Shown one piece after another: positions 4,990 through 58,776 of a stretch of 64,000 bases of DNA. Location: NCBI GenBank assembly GCA_945906795.1, contig CAMDRO010000002.1, positions 48,295 to 112,294 of the forward strand. Reading direction: 5' to 3'. The DNA is from Spirosoma fluviale. Its GTDB lineage: Bacteria > Bacteroidota > Bacteroidia > Cytophagales > Spirosomataceae. Numbering within the stretch: the first letter of the stretch is position 1; every line of letters begins with the position of its first letter. Below the pieces are notes generated by a model that worked only from the letters and a program-made list of their open reading frames with translations, was not told the origin of the DNA and did no database searches. The translations under genes and the position numbers were made by a program.

Positions 4990-5829
4990 ATGAAAAATCA
5001 AGATCAACTCTCACGAAGACATTTTGTAAAAAATATCTCTTTTGCATCTGCTTTTTTTATGGGCGGAGGGTTTCAGTCTCTTTCTGCACAGGATGTAGAC
5101 GCATTAAAGGATCAGGTTAAAATGAGATTTGCGGTGGCCTCAGATGCACATTATGGACAGCCTAATACTCCTTATGAAGCTATGATGGATACAATCATTG
5201 AGAAAATTAATTTATTTCATGGTTCAAATCCTCTGGATTTTTGTGTCATGAATGGAGATATTGTGCATGATGAAAAGTCGTTTTTATCTCAAGCAAAACA
5301 GAAGATAGATGGATTAAAAGTTCCCTATTTTGTAACCCGAGGAAATCATGATAAATGTTCGTCGGACTATTGGGAGCAAGTGTGGAACATGCCTTTGAAT
5401 CATCAACAATTCGTAAAAAATTCATTGGTCTTGTTAGGCGACACCTCTAATGAGCAGGGAACTTATGTTTCTCCTGATTTGGCTTGGTTGGAAGCCCAAT
5501 TGGAAGCCAATAAAAAACGCAAAAATATATTTTTGTTTTTACATATTCCCCAAGCTAAGTGGACTAAGAACGGTATTGAAACACCTGCATTTTTTGAATT
5601 AATTAAAAAATATTCCAATATACGCGCCGTTTTTCACGGACATGAACATGATCAAGACGGGGTACAAATGGTCGGTAAATTGCCATTCTTATTTGACTCA
5701 CACATTGGAGGTAGTTGGGGAACTCCACACAAAGGTTTTCGGGTTGTCGAGCTTTTAAACAGCGGTACAGTGCTTACCTATTTAATGGATCCGACCGTTA
5801 AAAAGAATGAATTAACGTATTCAATTTAA
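4990..5829 (+). CDS. Exported metallophosphoesterase
   Basis: N-terminal SRRHFVKN (Tat-like), ASDAHYG, NGDIVHD, RGNHD, FHGHEHDQ calcineurin-like motifs. Confidence 0.85.
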   Translation: MKNQDQLSRRHFVKNISFASAFFMGGGFQSLSAQDVDALKDQVKMRFAVASDAHYGQPNTPYEAMMDTIIEKINLFHGSNPLDFCVMNGDIVHDEKSFLSQAKQKIDGLKVPYFVTRGNHDKCSSDYWEQVWNMPLNHQQFVKNSLVLLGDTSNEQGTYVSPDLAWLEAQLEANKKRKNIFLFLHIPQAKWTKNGIETPAFFELIKKYSNIRAVFHGHEHDQDGVQMVGKLPFLFDSHIGGSWGTPHKGFRVVELLNSGTVLTYLMDPTVKKNELTYSI

Positions 5830-6935
5830 AATTTGATTACGTAATCGATATATGGAATTCCCATGGCAGAGGTGCTAACGCCCATGGGGGATAAAATACC
5901 AAAGTCGAAGGAACTTTTTTCCAACATAATTCTTACTCCGCCCGAAAGGACGCCATTGTAATTGCTTTTAACGCCATTAGCTTGCATAATGCCATTGGCT
6001 TTCATTCGATCATCATAGGTATATTCATTCACCGCGAAAATCCAGTTTTCGCTGACCAACATACACCTTCGGGAAATTCGTGTCATTCCTGAAAATGTAA
6101 ACATGGGTTTATTGGCAAAACTCCATGAAGTCCTACTGGTGTTGCTTACCGCGTCATAGGAGTCGCCTTTAGTGGCGCCCCAGCCAACATTCAAAGTCAC
6201 ATTGTTTTCGTTTGAGCCCAAGGTTAATGAACCATATCCTACGCCAACGCCCAAATTCAAATTACTAATGAGGGAACTTGCGATTAAAATTCCACCGCCC
6301 ACATGCACATTTTCACTTATTTTTTTGCCAAACTTTGGGGTGATGTAAAATAAGAAGGGTACGACGACTCCTCCACCGATGGAAAACTGATCACTAAGGC
6401 CAATTTGTATACTGTTTGATAAAAGGTATGCGTTCTGAAAATATTTCTCGCCTTTTTTAAGTGGTATGGCTGATGGGCCGAAGAAATAACGCGTTGGGTG
6501 TGGGTTAGGAAAAAGGTATTGCCCATTTTTGATTTGACTGTCCTCGATGATTTTTATTGATTTAATGGCTGATTTTGAGAGGGTAATCTGACCTAAATTT
6601 TTTGTTAATATACGTAAAGTCGATTCCGTTTTTGAAGCTAATTTCCCTAAAATGGTTTTTCCATCATTTAAAATTAGTTCTACATATAGTTCACCTTTTA
6701 ACTCAGAAACTTTTAGAATATTCGATTTTTGTAGGCTGATTTCTCCCAAAGTGAAATCTCGAAACAAAATGCTCGATTCATTTTCGCTGATTTTATTTCC
6801 AGTTAGAATAAACTGGTCTTTCAGAATGATGGAAAAATTGGCTAGGGTTGAGTCCTGTGTATTTTTGTTTACCGTGTTTTGTCCGTTTGCGAAAGTGCTA
6901 AGAGCAAGGCATACAATTAAATAAATCGATTTCAT
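5826..6935 (-). CDS. Hypothetical exported protein: two tandem small-beta repeats plus predicted outer-membrane beta-barrel
   Basis: Signal peptide; two internally similar segments near the N-terminus; Gly/aromatic-rich alternating strands ending in ...YIDYVIKF. Confidence 0.6.
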   Translation of the reverse strand: MKSIYLIVCLALSTFANGQNTVNKNTQDSTLANFSIILKDQFILTGNKISENESSILFRDFTLGEISLQKSNILKVSELKGELYVELILNDGKTILGKLASKTESTLRILTKNLGQITLSKSAIKSIKIIEDSQIKNGQYLFPNPHPTRYFFGPSAIPLKKGEKYFQNAYLLSNSIQIGLSDQFSIGGGVVVPFLFYITPKFGKKISENVHVGGGILIASSLISNLNLGVGVGYGSLTLGSNENNVTLNVGWGATKGDSYDAVSNTSRTSWSFANKPMFTFSGMTRISRRCMLVSENWIFAVNEYTYDDRMKANGIMQANGVKSNYNGVLSGGVRIMLEKSSFDFGILSPMGVSTSAMGIPYIDYVIKF

Positions 6936-53944: not shown

Positions 53945-54165
53945 TAAAAATTCATATTTTTTCGATCTGCAAGTTAAGAAATTTCGAGGGAAGGCATACA
54001 ATATTTTTAATAGGCATTTATTTTACGATCATTAGAATTTTAATTTTTAGGATCGAACCCAATAATTATTGTAGCTTTTTAAGTTATTCAAAATAAAATA
54101 GTCTCTTGACTATAAATTTCCCAATATATTTATCATTTTTGTTACAATGCACGAAATATATTGAT

Positions 54166-57100
54166 ATGCCAAAATCATACGTAAATAAAATCTCTAGTCT
54201 TCTTGTTGCCAATCGAGGTGAAATTGCGATTCGAATTATGCGCGCTGCTTCTGAATTAGGAATTCGGACCGTAGCTGTATATACATTTGAAGATCGTTAT
54301 TCTCTTCATCGCTATAAAGCTGATGAGGCCTACCAAATAGGAAAAGAGAACGAACCGCTTAAGCCCTATTTAGATATTGAGGGATTGATTTCTTTATGTA
54401 AATCCAAGAAAATAGATGCCATTCATCCCGGATATGGTTTTCTTTCTGAAAACGTGAAGCTTGCTTTGCGTTGCCGAGAAGAAGGAATCGTATTTATAGG
54501 GCCTTCCCCAGAAGCCATGAAAGCGCTTGGGGATAAAGTAGCCGCTAAGGTAGCTGCTCATAAGGCTAATGTGCCTATGATTCAGGATTCGAAGGGAGAT
54601 TTAAGCGATTATGACTTGGCCTTGTCGGAAGCTAAGCGAATTACTTTCCCTGTTATGGTTAAGGCTGCTGCCGGTGGAGGAGGTCGGGGTATGCGCGTGG
54701 TGCGGAAGGAAGAAGACTTGGAGAAAGCATACCAAGAAGCAAGAAATGAAGCTAAAAATGCCTTTGGCGACGAAACAATTTTTATTGAAAAGTTCATTGA
54801 CGAGCCTAAACATATAGAGGTACAGTTATTGGGGGACCAACATGGAAACCTAGTCCATTTATATGAGCGCGATTGTTCAGTTCAAAGAAGATTTCAGAAG
54901 GTGGTTGAGATAGCTCCTTCCTTTGGATTAAAAGAAGAAACAAAGCAAAAACTATATGCGTATGCGTTGTCGATAGGGAAGGCGGTTAATTATTATAATG
55001 CTGGAACGGTCGAGTTTTTGGTCGATAAGGATGAAAATATTTTTTTCATCGAAGTGAATCCCCGGATTCAAGTAGAGCATACCATCACCGAAGAGGTAAC
55101 AGGCATCGATATTGTACGTACTCAGATTTTAATTGCCCAAAATTACAAGTTGTCCGATTCTGGAATTTATATTTTGAGCCAAGCCGATATTCCATTGCGT
55201 GGTTACGCTATCCAATGTCGGATTACCACTGAAGATCCTTCAAATGGCTTTAAGCCCGACTTTGGTACTATTATTGCCTATCGAAATGCCGCTGGTTTTG
55301 GGATTAGGTTGGACGAAGGATCCTCATATCCAGGAGTAAAAATTTCGCCTTATTTCGATTCGATGTTGGTAAAAGTAAGTGCCAAAGGTCGGACGCTAAG
55401 AGGTGCTTCAGAACGTTTAAATAGAGCATTAACGGAATTTAGAATTAGAGGGGTAAAAACAAATATTCCATTTTTACGCAATGTCATTACCCATCCGATT
55501 TTTCAGGATGGTCAGTGTACGGTACAATTTATTGACACACATCCTGAATTGTTTAAATTTAAACCGACTCGGGATCGTTCCACTAAGGCTCTTCGTTATT
55601 TGGGAGAGGTGATTGTGAATGGGAACCCTGATGTAAAAGTAAAGCCCACGGCTCCCTTTAGATTAGCTAAGATTCCTTTTGTGGATCCAGCGAAGGAATT
55701 TCCTAGAGGCAATAAGCAATTATTGGATGAATTGGGTCCAGAGAAATTTGCCAAACATATTCTAGACTCCAAGCAAATATATTTTACCGACACGACGTTT
55801 AGGGATGGGCATCAATCTTTGTTAGCGACCCGAGTAAGAACGCAGGATATGTTAGCGGTGGCCAATGGTTTTGCTAAGTCGTTTCCTTCTTTGTTTTCGA
55901 TGGAAGTTTGGGGAGGTGCCACCTTTGATGTGGCCATGCGGTTTTTACAGGAATCTCCTTGGAAGCGTTTACATGAATTTAGAGAGGCAATGCCTAACAT
56001 GTTGCTTCAAATGTTATTTAGGGGTTCCAATGCGGTGGGTTACTCCGCTTACCCCGATAATCTCATTGAGAAGTTTGTTGAGAAGTCTTCCGAAGCAGGA
56101 ATTGATGTCTTCCGTATATTTGATTCATTGAATTGGATTGAGGCGATGAAAGTGTCCATCAAAGCGGTTAGGGAAAGAACTCCCGGTATCGCTGAAGCGG
56201 CGATTTGCTATACCGGTGATTTATATACGAATCCCAAATACAATTTGTCTTATTATTTGGATATGGCGCGCCAATTGGAAGACGCAGGCGCACACATGCT
56301 AGCTATCAAAGACATGGCTGGTTTATTGAGGCCATTTCAGGCGGCTACTTTGGTGACTGAATTAAAAAAGACGATCGACATTCCGATTCATTTACATACG
56401 CATGATACGGCCTCAGTTCAGTCTGCTACCTATTTGAAGGCGATTGAGGCGGGAGTTAATATCGTGGATGGGGCATTGGGTGCAATGTCGGGCTTGACTT
56501 CCCAGCCTAATTTGAATTCTCTCGTGGCGATGTTGCAAGGTCAAAAAAATGAAAGCCATTTGGATTTGAATTTACTGAATGAGTATTCCAATTATTGGGA
56601 GGCGGTGCGCGCCATGTATGCGCCTTTTGAATCTGAATTGAAAGCGGGAACAGCTGAGGTATACAACAATGAAATTCCTGGGGGGCAGTATACTAATTTA
56701 CGTGGTCAGGCTATTGCCTTAGGGGTAGGGGATAAATTTGAGTTATTAAAAGATAATTATTCGGAGGCCAATAAGTTGTTTGGTGATATCGTGAAAGTTA
56801 CTCCTTCGTCAAAAGTTGTGGGAGATATGGCCATTTTCATGACCGCTAACTCACTGACGGCGGAGGATGTTTATGCGAAGGGAAGTACTTTGTCCTTCCC
56901 TGAATCGGTTAAAGACTTTTTCAAAGGGGGATTAGGCCAACCTTATCAAGGATTTCCCAAGCAATTACAAGAGATTATTTTAAAGGGCGAAGTGGCCTTA
57001 GAGGGTCGGCCTAATGACCATTTAGCGCCTATTGATTTCGATCAAGATTTCAAAGAATTTTCTTTGAAGTTCCCGGATATTGAAGACGGTTTCTTTGATT

Positions 57101-58026
57101 ACCTGTCCTATAAAATGTATCCAAAAGTTTTCGAGGACTATTATAAAAACCATGCACTTTATGGGGAATTATCTGCCTTGCCGACTCCCGCTTTTTTCTA
57201 TGGTTTAAAGCAGGATGAGGAGATCATGATTACGATCGAGCCTGGAAAGACGATTATTGTCAAGTTCCTATATATGTCAGATGCGGATGAGTCGGGCTTG
57301 CGGAATGTGACTTTTGATTTGAATGGTCAAGCCAGGCGAATTAAGATTTTAGATCGAAATATTAAGATTGAGAAAGCCCAGCATGCGAAGGCGAAGGCGA
57401 AGGGGGATATTGGAGCACCATTGCAAGGTCGATTGAGTCGTATATTAGTCAAGTCCGGAGATGAGGTAAAGAAAAATGCGCCTTTGTATATCATTGAGGC
57501 TATGAAAATGGAATCCATTGTTTCCGCTCCTTTTGAAGGCTTAATTGGGAATGTTGTGTTGAATGAGGGTACGGTTGTGGAGCAAGATGATTTAGTATTA
57601 ACGCTAGAGAAGGCTAAATTGCCAGAGCCAGATGTGGAGGAGTATTTATTTGTATATGGCACTTTGAGACGTGATTGTGGCAATGACCTACATCGATTAA
57701 TTGCCCGAAATTCTGATTATACTGGTATGGCAACATTCCAAGGACAAATGTATCAAATAGCAGATTATCCAGGTATTGTAGCTTCTGATAACGTTTCAGA
57801 CCAAGTGGTGGGGGAATTATATTTATTATCCAAAACGATTAAATTACTGAATGTATTAGATGAATACGAGGAATTTGATGCGGAAGATTTAACAGCTAGT
57901 TTATTTGTCAGAAATAAAGTGGATGTAAATTTGATGGGAAAAGTAATCAGCTCGTATGCGTATTTATACAACCGGCCAGTGGATTCGCTGAAACGGATTG
58001 CATCAGGTGATTTTATAAATGGATAA
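54166..58026 (+). CDS. pyc: Pyruvate carboxylase with C-terminal gamma-glutamylcyclotransferase/AIG2-like domain
   Basis: Biotin carboxylase (LLVANRGEIAIRIMRAA, HPGYGFLSEN), carboxyltransferase (DTTFRDGHQSLLATRVRT), biotinyl EAMKMES (57496 onward), then in frame VEEYLFVYGTLRRD...GELYLLS...LNVLDEYEEFD. Confidence 0.93.
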   Translation: MPKSYVNKISSLLVANRGEIAIRIMRAASELGIRTVAVYTFEDRYSLHRYKADEAYQIGKENEPLKPYLDIEGLISLCKSKKIDAIHPGYGFLSENVKLALRCREEGIVFIGPSPEAMKALGDKVAAKVAAHKANVPMIQDSKGDLSDYDLALSEAKRITFPVMVKAAAGGGGRGMRVVRKEEDLEKAYQEARNEAKNAFGDETIFIEKFIDEPKHIEVQLLGDQHGNLVHLYERDCSVQRRFQKVVEIAPSFGLKEETKQKLYAYALSIGKAVNYYNAGTVEFLVDKDENIFFIEVNPRIQVEHTITEEVTGIDIVRTQILIAQNYKLSDSGIYILSQADIPLRGYAIQCRITTEDPSNGFKPDFGTIIAYRNAAGFGIRLDEGSSYPGVKISPYFDSMLVKVSAKGRTLRGASERLNRALTEFRIRGVKTNIPFLRNVITHPIFQDGQCTVQFIDTHPELFKFKPTRDRSTKALRYLGEVIVNGNPDVKVKPTAPFRLAKIPFVDPAKEFPRGNKQLLDELGPEKFAKHILDSKQIYFTDTTFRDGHQSLLATRVRTQDMLAVANGFAKSFPSLFSMEVWGGATFDVAMRFLQESPWKRLHEFREAMPNMLLQMLFRGSNAVGYSAYPDNLIEKFVEKSSEAGIDVFRIFDSLNWIEAMKVSIKAVRERTPGIAEAAICYTGDLYTNPKYNLSYYLDMARQLEDAGAHMLAIKDMAGLLRPFQAATLVTELKKTIDIPIHLHTHDTASVQSATYLKAIEAGVNIVDGALGAMSGLTSQPNLNSLVAMLQGQKNESHLDLNLLNEYSNYWEAVRAMYAPFESELKAGTAEVYNNEIPGGQYTNLRGQAIALGVGDKFELLKDNYSEANKLFGDIVKVTPSSKVVGDMAIFMTANSLTAEDVYAKGSTLSFPESVKDFFKGGLGQPYQGFPKQLQEIILKGEVALEGRPNDHLAPIDFDQDFKEFSLKFPDIEDGFFDYLSYKMYPKVFEDYYKNHALYGELSALPTPAFFYGLKQDEEIMITIEPGKTIIVKFLYMSDADESGLRNVTFDLNGQARRIKILDRNIKIEKAQHAKAKAKGDIGAPLQGRLSRILVKSGDEVKKNAPLYIIEAMKMESIVSAPFEGLIGNVVLNEGTVVEQDDLVLTLEKAKLPEPDVEEYLFVYGTLRRDCGNDLHRLIARNSDYTGMATFQGQMYQIADYPGIVASDNVSDQVVGELYLLSKTIKLLNVLDEYEEFDAEDLTASLFVRNKVDVNLMGKVISSYAYLYNRPVDSLKRIASGDFING

Positions 58027-58029
58027 TAC

Positions 58030-58776
58030 ATGAAAAATTTTATTTTAATCGCTTTTTGTTTGATTTCTGCGTCTGTAATCGCCCAAGAAAATCTTAAAAA
58101 AGCGCATGCTCATAATGACTATGAACATGCTAAGCCATTTCTTGAGGCGTATAAATTAGGCTACGGTTCTATTGAAGCGGATGTGTATGCGATCAATGGC
58201 GAGTTGTTAGTCAGTCACAACTTAGCGGATGTAAAAGCAGATAGAACTTTGCAATCTCTTTATATTGACCCCATAGTAGCCGTATTAAAGGCGAAAAAGC
58301 AAGGTAATTTCCATCAGTTTTTAATTGATTTTAAAACGAATGCGGACTCAACTTTACCTTTATTGATTAAATTTTTAGCACCGCACAAAGACTTATTTGT
58401 CAAATCGGGTTTGCGCATTGTTATTTCAGGCAATCGTCCGCTGATCAAGGATTACATTAATTTCCCGACTTGGATCACGTTTGATGGACGGTCTACGGAA
58501 ACTTATCCGGCCGGACTTGGAAGCTATGTGATCTTGGAGAGTGAATCTGTCTATAAATTTGGGATGTGGAGTGGGCAATCGCCAATGCCTGCAGCCATGA
58601 AAGAGAAACTTAAGGTGTATGTGGAAAAAGTTCATGGAGCTGGTAGGAAATTGCGACTTTGGGGAACGCCAAATACATTAATGGCCTATCAAGCCTTGTG
58701 GGATTTGGGCGTGGATTACATTGGATCAGATAATTTGTCTGAATTGGCCGACTTTTTGAAATTAGCCGCAAAGTAA
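58030..58776 (+). CDS. Exported PI-PLC/GDPD-like phosphodiesterase
   Basis: Signal peptide; KAHAHNDYEHAKPFLEAYKLGYGSIEADVYAINGELLVSHNLADV. Confidence 0.8.
   Translation: MKNFILIAFCLISASVIAQENLKKAHAHNDYEHAKPFLEAYKLGYGSIEADVYAINGELLVSHNLADVKADRTLQSLYIDPIVAVLKAKKQGNFHQFLIDFKTNADSTLPLLIKFLAPHKDLFVKSGLRIVISGNRPLIKDYINFPTWITFDGRSTETYPAGLGSYVILESESVYKFGMWSGQSPMPAAMKEKLKVYVEKVHGAGRKLRLWGTPNTLMAYQALWDLGVDYIGSDNLSELADFLKLAAK

Follow-up and report, generated by a model that had tools for sequence, protein, structure and literature searches.

Does the pyruvate carboxylase (PYC) gene of this locus really continue past its biotinyl domain into a second enzyme, a gamma-glutamylcyclotransferase (GGCT)/AIG2-like domain, and if so, how did the two become joined and what might the joined protein do? 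The window analysed here is the whole 64,000-nucleotide stretch, and all coordinates refer to it.

Structure of the fused gene

A single open frame occupies positions 54106-58026 on the forward strand and runs from the biotinyl domain into the GGCT part uninterrupted by any stop codon. The frame is open from a TTG at 54106, the likelier start is the ATG at 54166, and from this ATG the protein is 1286 aa long with a computed mass of 143.9 kDa, in keeping with the ~143 kDa product initially proposed. Residue numbers used below (1184-1187, E1255, F1267 and others) are those of the frame from TTG 54106. The features are as follows.

54166-57609, forward strand: pyruvate carboxylase part (BC, CT, PYC_OADA and biotinyl domains), frame residues 21-1168
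57409-57606, forward strand: biotinyl (BCCP) domain, PF00364 at aa 1102-1167, with the biotin-accepting Lys codon at 57505-57507
57610-57642, forward strand: linker KAKLPEPDVEE, 11 residues, with LPEP invariant in 49 distinct fusions; contains the non-conserved GTG at 57634
57643-58023, forward strand: GGCT/AIG2-like (GGACT) domain, frame residues 1180-1306, assigned by PF06094, AF2 model and Foldseek
57655-57666, forward strand: YGTL substrate-loop motif, residues 1184-1187, corresponding to Tyr7-Leu10 of mouse GGACT (PMC2954230)
57868-57870, forward strand: codon of E1255, aligned with catalytic Glu82 of GGACT (PMC2954230) and invariant in fused and free relatives
57904-57906, forward strand: codon of F1267, matched to active-site Tyr88 of GGACT from the alignment and PMC2954230

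The domains found by hmmscan are, from N to C terminus, Biotin_carb_N/CPSase_L_D2/Biotin_carb_C, HMGL-like, PYC_OADA, Biotin_lipoyl (aa 1102-1167) and GGACT PF06094 (aa 1181-1303). Biotin carboxylase, carboxyltransferase, PYC_OADA and biotinyl domains are all present in one chain, which scores 1680 bits against the NCBIfam pyruvate carboxylase equivalogs (cut-off 965), and the biotin-accepting Lys is present in EAMKMES and is kept in all fused sequences among those listed; by domain content the N-terminal part is a full pyruvate carboxylase. The stretch that follows the biotinyl domain reads LTLEKAKLPEPDVEEYLFVYGTLRRD... and matches PF06094 at 1.5e-18 in the whole protein and 2.4e-20 with the tail alone, scoring 68 bits against a gathering cut-off of 22.8 and covering profile positions 1-118 of 120. 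Open frame and hmmscan agree with the initial annotation that the pyc frame runs on into a complete GGCT/AIG2 domain.

Only three bases separate the fused gene from a 248-aa open reading frame (58030-58776) that is conserved directly downstream in Aquirufa and in one further genome (G066). It has no Pfam match at 0.001 and reads like a putative secreted glycerophosphodiesterase-type protein (KAHAHNDYEH...EADV). Elsewhere the fused gene is followed by a DUF6934 reading frame (PF22028, 6.5e-44; locus L083 of genome G087, forward strand, ~5551-6363), after which the final 237 nt of the GGCT part recur at 94.5% identity; the arrangement looks like the insertion of an element at the 3' end of the gene that carried its own copy of that end. 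At locus L084 a reading frame related to the DUF6934 one likewise lies 3' of the fused gene.

Distribution of the fusion

The survey covered 223 genomes of the family, 392 of the order and 398 of the phylum. Within the family a GGCT match is present in 218 of the 223 genomes, and in 55 of them it lies inside the PYC frame; the architecture is thus shared by related Cytophagales. These 55 belong to eight of the 36 genera (g1, g2, g6, g10, g11, g28, g30 and g36), namely Aquirufa, to which the window itself probably belongs, and seven related genera of Cytophagales, and include isolate genomes such as those of Aquirufa beregesia, A. nivalisilvae and A. rosea. The fused frames are ~1290 aa long except where a contig end cuts them. 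The only Aquirufa genome with no GGCT match (G026) also lacks the C-terminal region of pyc, so assembly incompleteness is the likely cause.

Every GGCT match in the eight genera is fused, with one copy per genome by GGCT-domain search (a single one in the window's own genome), the exception being the partial duplicate in G087. In the remaining 28 genera GGCT is a gene of its own, and among the matches listed most frames measure ~130-180 codons. No PYC-length frame with a GGCT domain was found outside the eight genera among the 392 order and 398 phylum genomes; one genome in that survey (G355) has a 6170-aa frame with a marginal GGCT match. Literature searches for a PYC-GGCT or PYC-AIG2 fusion returned nothing relevant, an absence that is not proof. 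Both parts belong to known families, and the fusion is a new architecture built from them.

Origin of the fusion

In a tree of the C-terminal 317 residues of PYC a branch with SH-aLRT support of 99 separates all fused sequences from the rest, and the nearest free PYCs are those of genomes G069, G081 and G094. The GGCT tree, with 129 columns and weak at depth, also places all fused domains together (95/97) and groups the free sequences of the same three genomes, with some external sequences, around them. Both trees are consistent with a single fusion and vertical descent thereafter; any assignment of the GGCT donor would be tentative.

Unfused PYC frames are ~1150-1190 aa long and terminate where the biotinyl domain does (...DDWVVTVE* or similar), just before the point at which the fused linker starts, consistent with the earlier statement that pyruvate carboxylases end with the biotin carrier domain. 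The initial annotation gave stop-codon loss between two tandem genes as one possible reading and recommended looking for adjacent separate genes in relatives. No relative was found with separate pyc and GGCT genes side by side, and where unfused relatives have both on one contig they are 0.7 to 3.5 Mb apart (positions 4.40 and 2.50 Mb in G062; 2.82 and 0.10 Mb in G080). Tandem-gene stop loss is accordingly rejected as the direct source of the fusion, with relocation of GGCT to the 3' end of pyc the simpler account on this gene order; a transient tandem state before fusion is possible.

One address of the free gene can be recognised. In several genera the order is IspG-MmcQ-x-GGCT (names assigned to IspG, MmcQ and TPR by reading the sequences), with GGCT adjoining the IspG-MmcQ locus in G057, G080, G084 and G107, and G070 sharing part of it. 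Four fused genomes (G038, G042, G072 and G087) retain IspG-MmcQ-TPR with no GGCT. Unfused G060, G062 and G081 likewise have no GGCT there, so this locus is just one of the addresses of the free gene. The IspG-MmcQ-TPR(-CinA) order is itself widespread in the family (loci L115-L123), with GGCT inserted in some genera. In the scenario that we propose, a single relocation in the common ancestor of the eight genera would have brought a free GGCT/AIG2-type gene to the 3' end of pyc, where it would have become an obligatory C-terminal domain of PYC; in the fused genomes this domain takes the place of the free gene.

Selective constraint and the junction

Median dN/dS values within Aquirufa, for which many pairs were omitted because of synonymous saturation, rise from 0.021 in the biotinyl tail through 0.032 in the linker to 0.061 in the GGCT domain. 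No Aquirufa pair exceeds 1, and close pairs agree in direction (e.g. the window and L002, with dN 0.05 and dS 0.40). At 80-90% PYC identity the ratio of GGCT to PYC distance is ~3.5 for fused and ~5.0 for free pairs, the pairs being non-independent, which suggests a modestly lower divergence of fused than of free GGCT relative to PYC.

Loss of the reading by resequencing, through discovery of a stop or frameshift at the junction, had been named as the outcome that would overturn the fusion. Because 55 genomes and 49 distinct junctions carry it, a sequencing frameshift or lost stop is excluded, and the probability of an assembly artefact, or of a recent stop loss in one strain, is negligible given the occurrence in eight genera, isolate genomes included, and the purifying selection on the GGCT domain. 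Taken at the level of genome comparison, these data show a fusion that is real, of single origin and under purifying selection.

The junction aligns without gaps across the 49 distinct fused sequences. The GTG at 57634 is present as first described, along with the proposal that it lets one locus yield both the fusion and a free GGCT. This proposal did not hold up: of the 49 sequences, 20 have GTG at that position and the others GTA, AAA, CAA, ATC or further codons, all 49 lack an in-frame ATG at the junction, and in 20 the stretch from LPEP to VYGTL contains no ATG, GTG or TTG at all. An internal start at 57634 is rejected on this lack of conservation. The broader idea that the fusion is a genomic format only, resolved into two ordinary proteins by linker cleavage or an internal start, is improbable; the GTG in the window and some relatives and a Pro-containing, probably exposed linker speak for it, but a linker that is conserved and does not vary freely, as well as the missing start codons, speak against it.

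Fold and active site of the GGCT domain

An AF2 model of the GGCT domain has a pLDDT of 85.9, and its top Foldseek matches are YtfP, YkqA and human and mouse GGACT, with probabilities of 1.00 and TM scores in the 0.6 range; model and matches agree on the GGCT/AIG2-like (PF06094) fold. The catalytic site of GGACT comprises Tyr7, Gly8, Thr9, Leu10, Ile50, Glu82, Tyr88, Tyr115 and Tyr143 (PMC2954230). In a profile alignment to the mouse protein YGTL falls at residues 1184-1187, and Glu82 corresponds to E1255 within LDEYEE, the conserved acidic segment picked out in the initial annotation. Its other landmark, the signature VYGTLR, includes the YGTL loop, which like the catalytic Glu is invariant in the 49 fusions; the Glu is also present in all aligned free relatives. 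By motif, Tyr 1286 near the C terminus (YLYNR) is the probable equivalent of Tyr115.

The complete GGACT set is absent. The position aligned with Tyr88 is Phe (F1267) in every fused domain and Tyr in 30 of 32 free homologues from the family and order, and Tyr143 has no counterpart, the domain ending near position 130. Six further residues (R1188, G1192, N1193, L1195, H1196 and Q1212) are, like F1267, invariant in the fused set and not in free homologues. On these grounds the fused domain is assigned to the broad PF06094 family, and a narrower assignment to GGACT proper would go beyond the residues seen. Since the Tyr88 equivalent is Phe in all fused copies, activity or specificity may have changed, and this clade-wide pocket substitution hints at an accessory or sensor role.

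Pathway context and candidate substrates

The tested Aquirufa genomes each have two gamma-glutamyltransferases (GGT), and three of the four have PxpA, which all further fused genomes examined lack. The search for gamma-glutamylcysteine ligase covered PF04107 and PF04262, two families beside type-3 GshA (PF08886), and found no match in the tested Aquirufa. Genome G046, which is fused and has an estimated completeness of 100%, has no GGT, PxpA or PF04107 match and keeps the fusion. Among the neighbours identified, no gamma-glutamyl or 5-oxoproline gene was recognised beside the fused gene.

With no PF04107 or PF04262 in Aquirufa, and with the fusion kept in G046, it is unlikely that the domain is retained for the breakdown of glutathione. 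The glutathione role, one of those first put forward for the cyclase, is thereby disfavoured, a glutathione-cycle explanation is rejected, and glutathione is an unlikely substrate in Aquirufa; gene content makes gamma-glutamyl amines or amino acids the likelier candidates. Recycling of 5-oxoproline by PxpA is also rejected as the reason for the fusion, PxpA being confined to three of four Aquirufa among the tested fused genomes.

Proposed role of the fused protein

We favour, with a probability of about 0.6, a bifunctional chain in which the GGCT domain would remain a working cyclotransferase, with co-expression or placement as the advantage of the link. The PYC part would make oxaloacetate as usual, and the GGCT domain, keeping its fold and catalytic Glu, would convert gamma-glutamyl amines or amino acids to 5-oxoproline and the freed amine. 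A short Pro-containing linker (~11 residues) would tie it to the swinging biotinyl domain, which would have to carry it while travelling between active sites. Single-chain PYC is a homotetramer (PMC5059739), so that four GGCT domains per tetramer would be expected. An AF2 model of biotinyl domain, linker and GGCT from a shallow alignment has a pLDDT of 30, and for this reason the placement of GGCT on the biotinyl domain is one that we infer. From the link a housekeeping cyclotransferase would gain fixed co-expression, stability or placement, rather than substrate channelling. Against an active enzyme, the lack of GGT, PxpA and PF04107 leaves no obvious pathway partner in G046.

That same retention in genomes with no GGT, PxpA or PF04107 would suit an accessory role, in which the domain serves PYC as a ligand sensor (for a gamma-glutamyl compound, glutamate or 5-oxoproline) or as a structural cap tuning biotinyl-domain movement, coupling anaplerosis to glutamate status with turnover low or lost. 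The residues invariant only in fused copies (R1188, G1192/N1193, L1195/H1196, Q1212 and F1267), the slower GGCT divergence and the short linker with its invariant LPEP point the same way. We consider such a role possible but less likely, however, since the YGTL loop and catalytic Glu, superfluous for pure binding or structure, are invariant in all 49 sequences, and no further GGCT that could supply the activity turned up when fused genomes were searched. A built-in regulator acting through binding or turnover of a gamma-glutamyl compound, linking carbon entry into the TCA cycle to glutamate or gamma-glutamyl status, is more doubtful again; to our knowledge, PYC control of this kind has not been described.

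The fusion makes bacterial GGCT/AIG2 proteins, and with them the question of their physiological substrate, testable, because a physical tie to anaplerosis that is conserved gives a strong clue from context. Given equivalog scores far above the cut-off, automatic annotation probably names such proteins plain pyruvate carboxylase, hiding the GGCT function.

Comparison with known systems

Up to residue 1168 the protein has the BC-CT-PYC_OADA-biotinyl order and length of single-chain pyruvate carboxylase (NF009554/TIGR01235); its unfused relatives end at the biotinyl domain, whereas the fused protein adds the linker and GGCT. A very stable multidomain enzyme, PYC ends in its mobile biotin carrier. 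A second enzyme domain was tethered to this carrier once, and no sampled genome of the clade has gone back to a free copy, which indicates that the join brings a benefit or at least does no harm. The added domain shares the fold, YGTL loop, catalytic Glu and YLYNR Tyr of the PF06094 proteins (E. coli YtfP, B. subtilis YkqA and animal GGACT/A2LD1), but it is covalently attached to PYC, has Phe at the Tyr88 position and lacks the C-terminal extension with Tyr143 of animal GGACT.

Urea amidolyase (urea carboxylase plus allophanate hydrolase) is likewise a biotin-dependent carboxylase chain with an extra enzyme, and the GGCT domain model weakly matches K. lactis allophanate hydrolase 4iss by Foldseek (E 0.018, TM 0.51), presumably in its C domain. 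The carboxylase of urea amidolyase feeds its hydrolase. The two systems differ in the carboxylase and in domain order, and the enzyme attached in urea amidolyase uses the carboxylase's product, whereas no such tie is known for PYC and GGCT.
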